Source: Parasitella parasitica
Taxonomy: Eukaryota > Mucoromycota > Mucoromycetes > Mucorales > Mucoraceae
Reading direction: 5' to 3'
NCBI GenBank assembly: GCA_025201805.1
Contig: MU619272.1
Span: forward strand, 158,380 to 222,379
Length of the DNA: 64,000 nucleotides
A model generated the notes under the pieces. That model had not been told where the DNA came from, did not search any database, and was given only the letters and a program-made list of their open reading frames with translations. This document shows, one piece after another, positions 61,567-64,000 of the stretch. Made by a program: the position numbers and the translations under genes. Every line of letters begins with the position of its first letter. Position 1 is the stretch's first letter.

Positions 61567-61707
61567 TTAGGTTTGATTTGGCTTCTGGGGGCACATCCTG
61601 AAGAGATTATAATGTTAATGCACATTGAAAATATAAAAAAAGCTTGTATATTCTTACATTGAGTAATGGCCCTTTTGGCCACAGTGAATACAACGACCGT
61701 CAGACAT
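61567..61707 (-). CDS. 26-residue CCHC zinc-knuckle microprotein
   Basis: Two tiny exons, 61707-61658 and 61597-61567, separated by a 60-nt intron with a GTAAGA donor and TTCAG acceptor. The spliced product starts MSDGRCIHCGQKGHYS and ends MCPQKPNQT, then stop. It contains one complete C-x2-C-x4-H-x4-C zinc knuckle. The last Cys is supplied only by exon 2, and the Met before it is split across the junction. Zinc knuckles bind single-stranded RNA or DNA. No longer ORF explains the pattern; a 144-codon reading at 61248-61682 is just intron read-through. Coding status is inferred from the perfect motif plus splice signals. Confidence 0.7.
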
Positions 61708-63397
61708 ATTTTTTATATAAGCGTAAGAGAGTTTTTTTTTCGGGGGTGTGGTAGAGATGAGAGGAGTTTGTATTCTTCTAGAGAATTTAAAAGTTGTTTT
61801 AAGTATGATTAACAAAAAAAAAAAAGGGTTTAGATGAAATAATCAAAGGGCTTATATAGTTTTTTCAATTCTTTGTATGACAAAGATTGTTTTGGTTTCG
61901 CGCCGATCTCCTCTCGGCACGTGGCAAAACATAGTTACAAAATGAAATGGGAAGGATAGTAGTATGACTATATAGACTTTAATCTCGAGACATGCACGGT
62001 TATTCATGCGATACATTCTCCAAATAGCGATATAAATAATATATGAGAATCCGTATGAATAGCGTCATATTGTCGTGGATTATCATAATTCCAAGGACCA
62101 AAGATCCAACTGAGTGAATCAGACATTTATCAACAATCAAATGAAACGGACACTCATTCGGCTTTAAAGGACCTAAGCTCCGATTTTATTTTCTATAAAT
62201 GTGATAGAACGTGTAATGTAACAATGAATGGACGAACTATCAAAGAGAGCATATAATATAGTGTATTTTTAGTTAATGCCACACAAATTTGTTAATTTTA
62301 ATTCAGTACAAATCCGCTGACATTTGATTTATTAAGAAGCATGATAGCCTTCTATCAACGCCACCCTACTTTTTGCTGCGCACATTGTAACGTTAATTTA
62401 TGACACAAGATCATGCAGACTCATTGTTCCAGTTTGATAGTTTAAAATTACAGTTGTTTATTGAATGAGATTATGTTTCATATTACTCAGCTTAAAAAAT
62501 TTCATAGGTTTTATTTGCTATTTAATCCTTATCATTTATTAGTATGAATTAATCCGATTTGGAGGTAAGCTGACTTGTTTTCTGCATTGCAGTTAAATGA
62601 TCAAGGAGGTCCAGATAAGGTGCCTTAGTTTACTGCGCCAAAATGATTCGACATGTTTCAAATAAAAAAAAGAGATTCTTGTCATAAAAATCAAGACGTG
62701 CTTTGTGTCACACATTTGTTAGGCGCATCCATTCATGCATCGTGGTATGGAGCAGAGGTAAGCGTATGTGAAATTGAACGATATAATTTAGCCAAAAGGA
62801 GGCTGGGCGCCAAACAAGTATAATGATATCTTGTTTACAGCTAGAAATCAGAGCTCCCTAAATGCAGATGCACAGCCCATTTATAGTTAGCAAACAGTAT
62901 TGTATATATTTTCTTTTCGATTTAACATTGCTTTATTTGTATAGCCTTGCCAAATGAAAGCCATTTATATATAGCTCACGCTGCATACCAATGTATTACG
63001 CATTGACAACAACATTCAAATGATTCTTATTGGCATCATCGTTTCGCGTTCGGCGTATATACATTTAATGCACGTTATTTACCTTAAGTACATTCACATC
63101 ATATCCGCATCTATCAAAAATGCGTGTAGATTGCATGTTCCTGTTTGCGTATATTTATTAGATGTGATATAAATGTGACTAATGCAGCGAAATCCAGACA
63201 TGTAATAAAACAACGTGTTTATGTAAAGGGCTCCTATATGTCCAGGTGGATCCAAGATATAATAATGCAACGCTTGGCCATATTTATGTACAAGATTTGC
63301 AATTGTAATATAAACTAAAGTCTAAGGTTCTGCGTGGCATTTTGATGAGACCCTTGATGGCATGTGTATATTTAAGGAAAACTTTCTACAGGATTCT
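61708..63397. other. 1.7 kb AT-rich region
   Basis: No coding exon recognised. It includes the upstream region of the microprotein gene. The part near 63100-63397 lies just downstream of the Fanzor-like ORF remnant, where an omega-RNA-like guide would be expected if one survives. I see no structure I can defend there. Confidence 0.45.
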
Positions 63398-64000
63398 TTA
63401 AATTAGGCAATCAGAACTTTTTTGTGGATGATTGAAAAAAGAGAAATGAGATATTTTAGTAATTAGGTTGGGCCAATTATATAAATGATTAAGATGAATT
63501 GCTTGTAATAATCTAAACCCTTTACGGGGTAGTCGTATTAATATGGTGATGTTCGAAGCGATGTTGGAGATGATGTTGGTGGTGGTGTGGGTGGTGATGT
63601 GGGTGGTATTGCGTTGGGGCTTGTAAAAGGACGTACATTCTTTCAAATTCCAGATTGATTCTGCAATGTTTATCATGTTCCTGGCTGCATTAACATCCCT
63701 CTGCCAAGGTTTGTGGTATCCATCCTCTCCACATGTTACTACGCTAACCCTTTGAATCGAGAAGTTTAGGCTTTATTCAAATTTTTATGAAGGCAGAAGC
63801 TGCAAATTTTTGAAGTTTTGAATTCATTGATAGTTAACGCTATCAGATCGTATTCAGTTTCTCTCTTCTTTAACGTTTGATAAAATTTACCAACCAAACC
63901 ACAGCGCAGACGCTTCAATTTTGCCAAATCTTTAGCGAAAGCGCAGTACCGAATATGATTGGAGCTTTGGTCTGATCATAGCTAAACTTGGCAGGTTTCC
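63398..64000 (-). pseudogene. Fanzor/TnpB-like RNA-guided nuclease, decayed, 5' part outside window
   Basis: The minus strand encodes the C-terminal third of a Fanzor-type (eukaryotic TnpB-like) nuclease. In order: KFSYDQTKAPIIFG (RuvC-II side), then LKRLRCGLVGKFYQTLKKRE and LIALTINEFKTSKICSFC with the first zinc-finger Cys pair, then KPKLLDSKG, then SVVTCGEDG and WQRDVNAARN, the RuvC-III block with its catalytic Asp. These pieces lie in different frames, with stops between them near 63740-63770 and around 63930, and no GT-AG intron fits. This copy is therefore broken. The second Cys pair is incomplete (CGED). A Thr/His-rich tail encoded by a GGTGGTG-type repeat runs to a stop at 63398. Confidence 0.85.

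Follow-up and report, generated by a model that had tools for sequence, protein, structure and literature searches.

The Fanzor relic at the right edge

The DNA analysed here, a 64,000-nucleotide stretch of the Parasitella parasitica genome (the window; G000:C36:158380-222379, on contig C36, which continues to 225448), carries broken frames at its right edge. Are they what remains of a Fanzor RNA-guided nuclease, and how might the element that carried it have worked? A first-pass annotation had picked out five hallmark peptides on the minus strand, and each of the five is present there, in the order given though not all in one frame. The stop-to-stop frame 63975-63766 holds LVGKFYQTLKKRE and TINEFKTSKICSFC; VTCGEDG (as VVTCGEDG) and WQRDVNAARN come from the frame 63772-63398, which overlaps the first, and PKLLDSKG, located by eye, from the third.

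The 69-aa window frame matched a single Pfam family, Cas12f1-like_TNB, with E = 8.8e-4 and 19.8 bits, below the curated cut-off of 26.3. It matched nothing in the PDB at E up to 10, and the 124-aa frame alone matched DUF4739 at chance level (E = 0.13). When the whole 30.7-Mb genome was searched with the paralogue C33:6195-6515, the C-terminus of the relic was recovered at E = 4.8e-10. The middle part of C33 found two more pieces upstream, past the window at window coordinates 64092-64549 (E = 4.2e-8 and 0.003). With a second paralogue, C13, as query against the contig end alone (E = 2e-18), the relic could be traced to window coordinate 64561. The proposal of a decayed Fanzor is thus supported by genome-wide paralogue matches, by the TNB domain match and by the similarity of C33 to SpuFz1 described below. 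An unrelated zinc-binding transposase had been raised as a possible better match; no other Pfam family reached its cut-off in the window frames or in C33. We conclude that positions 63398-64000 of the minus strand are a degenerate Fanzor1 C-terminus, and its descent from Fanzor1, taken alone, is almost certain.

Within the window the relic occupies 63387..64000 (minus strand), counted from the right end of the element, and it extends beyond the window to about 64561. The RuvC/TNB stretch at 63742..63939 (minus strand; tblastn with C33_c, E = 9.4e-13 in the window) holds the alternative glutamate, within TINEF, and the CSFC cysteines, the first pair of the zinc domain, and terminates in a stop and a frame shift. 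RuvC-III, WQRDVNAARNMINIAESI, lies in a different frame at 63653..63706 (minus strand), as placed by paralogue alignment and tblastn. This match stops at 63653, and 63398 is merely the end of an open frame; the right end of the element, AATCCTG with the TA that follows it, is at 63395-63387 (minus strand). It was located by alignment with C33, C44, C150 and others and by searching 5.2 kb with the terminal repeat from relatives, which matched there (E = 7.9e-5). The last element bases, CCTG, and the TA target site together occupy 63387..63392. No second Fanzor relic was convincing in the window when 14 pieces were used in tblastn, the next best match after the main relic having E = 0.018.

State of the window copy

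The window copy is dead and, judging from its sequence, cannot make a working nuclease. RuvC blocks had been expected in the extended contig. The flanking stretches on either side of RuvC-I are indeed retained, but RuvC-I itself has been lost through deletion: between 64400 and 64377 the window copy has 22 bases against 34 residues in C33, and the DPG motif, intact in C33 and C13, is gone. The locus is therefore a relic of a Fanzor1 gene and not a working member. Its reading frame is broken by stops and at least one shift, and three of the four cysteines of the zinc domain are left, one of the second pair having disappeared. At about 64530, beyond the window, SDG replaces the TDG of the Fanzor1 WED domain, which C33 and C13 have. 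The Arg-Asp of RuvC-III is preserved, and INEF aligns with INEF of C33 and IDEF of C13, at a position that we take to be the alternative RuvC-II glutamate of Fanzor1. The N-terminal half was not found in the 2.5 kb of contig beyond 64561. The right end alone of the element was found, with no convincing match for the left terminal repeat.

A two-hairpin block past the gene

The first-pass annotation had proposed that aligning copies would expose conserved sequence 3' of the gene, and a two-hairpin block was found there. Common to the relics of the window family, it is about 56 nt long, lies past RuvC-III and consists of hairpin 1 (CCGT...ACGG), hairpin 2 and then ATTTAGATTWTTACAGG. In the window this candidate omega-RNA scaffold is at 63495..63550 (minus strand). 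The same annotation had looked for an omega-RNA-like region below 63398; that part of it fails, as 63100-63387 is outside the element and the block, read at 63550-63495, is inside the interval annotated as the gene relic. Hairpin 1 of the window block retains two of five pairs and hairpin 2 (ACCC/GGGT) is intact. The arms of hairpin 2 vary among copies, being CCCC/GGGG in C150, TCCC/GGGA in C33 and TCGCC/GGTGA in C198.

A first model of the block, made from eight copies and run on 38 of 90 loci, gave 22 matches up to E = 10. At an E of 0.023 or less it matched 17 of the 38 loci, nine of which were outside the model. In a second model, of six copies, the window and its sibling C150 were left out. 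This model still placed the window block first in the 64 kb (E = 2.4e-5; next match 1.4) and, among 41 other loci, yielded 10 matches at E up to 0.04. Four of five covariation measures on the first eight copies were above shuffles, which were as high in 4 to 15 of 500 cases; for the fifth measure, the number of further pair types, shuffles were as high in 466 of 500.

Could the block instead be the tail of the coding sequence plus adjoining DNA, inherited from a common ancestor and without any RNA role, in a relic that would still be a Fanzor? By eye, C39 and C198 share a frame that stays open through it. A stop precedes it in C44 and C149, however, and C200 passes it in another frame. The arms of hairpin 2 also change together across copies: arms re-dealt among copies did as well as each copy's own arms in 4 of 5000 trials with 16 sequences (C21, which lacks the segment, dropped) and 6 of 5000 with 12 representatives (one per close group), in a test on related copies that does not control for their relatedness. 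C10 and C66 fitted poorly in this comparison. Traces of the block moreover occur in relics with little gene left (C38, C10 and C8). We consider descent as part of the coding end to be a real but minor possibility.

The pattern CCGTANNNNACACGG had 11 matches in the whole genome, at least eight of them at Fanzor 3' ends, against six for a reversed control pattern. The hairpin pattern also led to relics that were absent from the protein-search lists, namely C10, which has a WQRD remnant, and less clearly C8. C32, the third hairpin-pattern match read, had no signs of a Fanzor by eye. An Rfam scan of four block-bearing loci gave no match up to E = 1.

Two further ideas about the block were rejected. 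Its selective keeping in the window relic is unsupported because hairpin 1 is broken there. An alternative first stem seen by eye, GTAATAA/TTATTAC, was dropped because C33, C39, C152, C150 and the window break it.

Complementarity between the block and the transposon end

At the end of the block, the window has the hexamer TACAAG (63502..63507, minus strand), which is complementary to the right end of the element at five of six positions. In the seven copies with a readable right end, aligned hexamers were compared for pairing with the six terminal bases, made up of the element end and the TA. Of 82 positions, that of the block-end hexamer TACAGG was the best, with a mean of 5.14 of six pairs and at least five pairs in all seven copies. 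The runner-up had 4.43 pairs and reached that level in three of seven, and the overall mean was 2.2. Because both hexamers are conserved, the block-end hexamer and the terminus show little covariation. Among lowest-energy folds, the terminus stem was exact in C33, had four of its pairs in C150 and was absent from the other five of the seven copies. An alignment-wide fold of the 3' region of these copies returned hairpin 1 alone. The complementarity suggests a guide-RNA scaffold that would be closed by the transposon end.

The same complementarity would arise if the block-end hexamer and the element end formed an inverted repeat acting in DNA, for example as a site for a transposase or the border of a nested insertion, with no RNA stem. 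In keeping with this, the internal TACAG is identical to the five bases with which the terminal repeat, its TA included, begins, and the 3' part has repeated units containing GGTAAG. Against it, the position right after two hairpins and the inclusion of TA fit the published Fanzor1 guide RNAs (PMC10711439). A purely DNA-level repeat is rather unlikely, and closure of an RNA scaffold is the reading we prefer. In C25, which has the same terminal repeats with another Fanzor, TTACAG is inside a local hairpin (by eye).

The transposon vehicle

Long terminal inverted repeats beginning CAG and adjoining TA are common to C33, C39, C44 and C77. C25, C2 and C46 carry another Fanzor and have the same repeats, and one terminal repeat used as query gave 17 genome matches at E up to 0.001. 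TA was found on both sides of C44 (1.1 kb) and C25 (3.8 kb), the sole elements read at both ends. The window copy shows TA on the right side only; in C39 the TA has been lost, and C2 is truncated at the left end.

Neither the DDE_3 matches listed nor the MULE matches included a transposase at the terminal repeats. With 150 of 301 candidates scored, none of the DDE_3 matches listed was within 10 kb of the 17 terminal-repeat matches, and none of the three MULE matches in the genome was on a contig carrying these repeats. We therefore describe the elements as TA-flanked and name no superfamily. DDE_1 transposases gave no match, a result that is uninformative because control genomes likewise gave none. 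The apparent vehicle is a DNA transposon, non-autonomous and bounded by long terminal inverted repeats, with TA as its target site; we call it TA-flanked and do not assign it to mariner.

DDE_3 (PF13358) transposases are abundant in this genome: scoring 150 of 301 candidates gave at least 163 matches.

MuDR elements usually have long terminal repeats, and a MuDR-type vehicle with 9-bp target duplications was weighed against a TA-flanked one. A model for it exists in MCi-4 of Mucor circinelloides, which has 9-bp duplications (Bao and Jurka, PMC3627910). C44 and C25, however, are bordered by TA at each end, and a 9-bp duplication was looked for by eye in both without being seen; the few MULE matches, all away from repeat-bearing contigs, compare with the far more numerous DDE_3. 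A MuDR-type vehicle is accordingly improbable, and we retain the TA-flanked description.

Two observations on other elements were made in passing. In the 1.1-kb TA-flanked element of C44, at about 71034-72156, two Fanzor C-termini lie on opposite strands and each faces its nearer terminal repeat: one of window type (71565-71873, plus strand) and one of C75 type (71378-71165, minus strand; E = 3e-10). Another Fanzor family (e.g. C155:56777-58690 and C2:306548-308523) has element ends in the form of hairpins starting GAGCATCTCC and adjoining TTA/TAA, with 23 end matches. An identical 3-bp flank was seen by eye on both sides in five of the eight such elements seen at both ends, and these elements look Harbinger-like.

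Fanzor1 identity and relatives in the genome

Related copies of the gene had been predicted elsewhere in the genome, and genome searches found many; for intact copies the evidence is suggestive only. There were 36 matches to the TNB (Fanzor/TnpB zinc) domain PF07282 at E up to 0.001. In C33 the domain scored 41.6 bits, above the cut-off, and the middle part of this paralogue (214 aa) matched SpuFz1 in the PDB across 164 residues (E = 9.8e-6), the Asp-Pro of RuvC-I being aligned. That the window relic is a Fanzor2 or a bacterial-type TnpB is scarcely credible: the zinc domain is common to Fanzor1, Fanzor2 and TnpB and the best PDB match of the C33 C-terminus is the TnpB-like nuclease LaTranC (E = 7.4e-6), but the middle of C33 matches SpuFz1 and carries the TDG described for Fanzor1. 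Besides TDG, C33 has DPG and the alternative glutamate, and all three are given as Fanzor marks in the literature (PMC10711439).

The C-termini of C33 and C39 are 96% alike (106 residues), yet stops and frame breaks disrupt C33, and C39 carries an internal deletion. In several of the good copies, parts of the gene are runs of N. The Fanzor piece of C99 is an open frame of 320 aa that contains DPG and ends at the contig edge. In a protein search this frame matched 76 proteins at E up to 0.001, and the matches with organism names came from Mucor, Rhizopus, Cokeromyces, Backusella, Parasitella, Phycomyces, Gilbertella and Mycotypha. The best matches were to Mucor flavus, 89% identical along the full query, and to M. 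circinelloides, 97% identical along 37% of it. They point to a Mucor-like fungus as host. The same frame had no PDB match at E up to 1.

What appears by eye to be a short intron interrupts the frame between the alternative glutamate and the first zinc cysteines in a third Fanzor subfamily (C68, C75, C9 and C88). The C75 C-terminus is 95% alike to C36:134464-134700, a copy of this subfamily on the window's own contig.

Proposed mechanism and comparison with known Fanzors

The mechanism proposed here is based on the published Fanzor1 reRNA layout (PMC10711439), together with the terminus pairing. We regard the window copy as the dead remnant of a TA-flanked non-autonomous element whose ancestral Fanzor1 would have used a guide RNA from the right end, closed by terminus pairing; as a whole, this account is probable, with appreciable room for doubt. 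In the living ancestor, a transposase supplied in trans would have moved the element, and the ancestral Fanzor protein would have bound a guide RNA derived from the right end of the element. This RNA would run from two small hairpins just past the gene into the terminal repeat, whose very end, with the TA, would pair back to the hexamer at the end of the hairpin block. The bases after TA, copied from flanking DNA, would then serve as guide. For TnpB, cutting of the empty site helps element retention, and by analogy such cutting would help to keep the element.

A more detailed version, which we put forward as speculative and doubtful, has the scaffold split: conserved hairpins past the gene and a last stem, UACAGG/CCUGUA, formed across the terminal repeat. 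The transposon end would set the start of the guide, and the intervening repeat might be looped out, or even removed by splicing; the CAG-GTAA at the end of the block is similar to a 5' splice site.

In published Fanzor1 reRNAs (PMC10711439), the scaffold includes the terminal repeat and the target duplication, and the reRNA extends about 15 nt past the duplication. In the Fanzor1 of the Spodoptera frugiperda ascovirus, too, the terminal repeat and target duplication belong to the scaffold and the guide begins past them, as proposed here; the ascovirus reRNA was demonstrated by small-RNA sequencing (PMC10711439), whereas ours is inferred from complementarity only. PpFz1, a mucoralean Fanzor1 from Parasitella parasitica, likewise has a short scaffold with two stem-loops (PMC11423790). 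The first stem has seven pairs in PpFz1, and seven in each of the three solved Fanzor1 RNAs (PMC11423790), compared with four to five pairs here. No PpFz1 chain was among the PDB matches obtained.

By contrast, SpuFz1 of Spizellomyces punctatus (PDB 8gkh) has 30-nt inverted repeats and a 75-nt scaffold (PMC10432273). Here the repeats are long, 105-227 nt separate the block start from the element end (seven copies), and the window copy is dead.

Within the same fungal order, Bao and Jurka (2013; PMC3627910) list ten Fanzor1 families in M. circinelloides, MCi-1 to MCi-10, likewise Fanzors on DNA elements without their own transposase. Compared by description, MCi-4 is MuDR-like with its 9-bp duplications and MCi-2 and MCi-5 have no clear repeats (PMC3627910). 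As these Mucor families were published in 2013, our finding is not new in kind.

A dead Fanzor alone adds little; more is gained from the family comparison to which it led. Several Fanzor families coexist in one mucoralean genome, carried by at least two kinds of vehicle, and the predicted scaffold of one of them is specific enough to reveal relics that protein searches did not list. If the terminus pairing is true, it offers a testable example of a Fanzor adapting its guide RNA to the terminus of the transposon by which it was captured.

Sequences adjoining the relic

A run of 17 residues at 61657-61707 of the window (minus strand), with CIHCGQKGHYSM as its last letters, is similar to the beginning of a CCHC zinc knuckle. 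C33 (CVKCKQPGHVNGRSALC) and C99 likewise have CCHC-like stretches ahead of their Fanzor frames, with no significant match to the window. Just beyond the window, L009:3734-4258 (plus strand) is a 174-aa open frame (MYIEHVTDLEEKRRQAIHDARLMMIYQ...) that looks Sds3-like, and it may be a host gene adjoining the relic.
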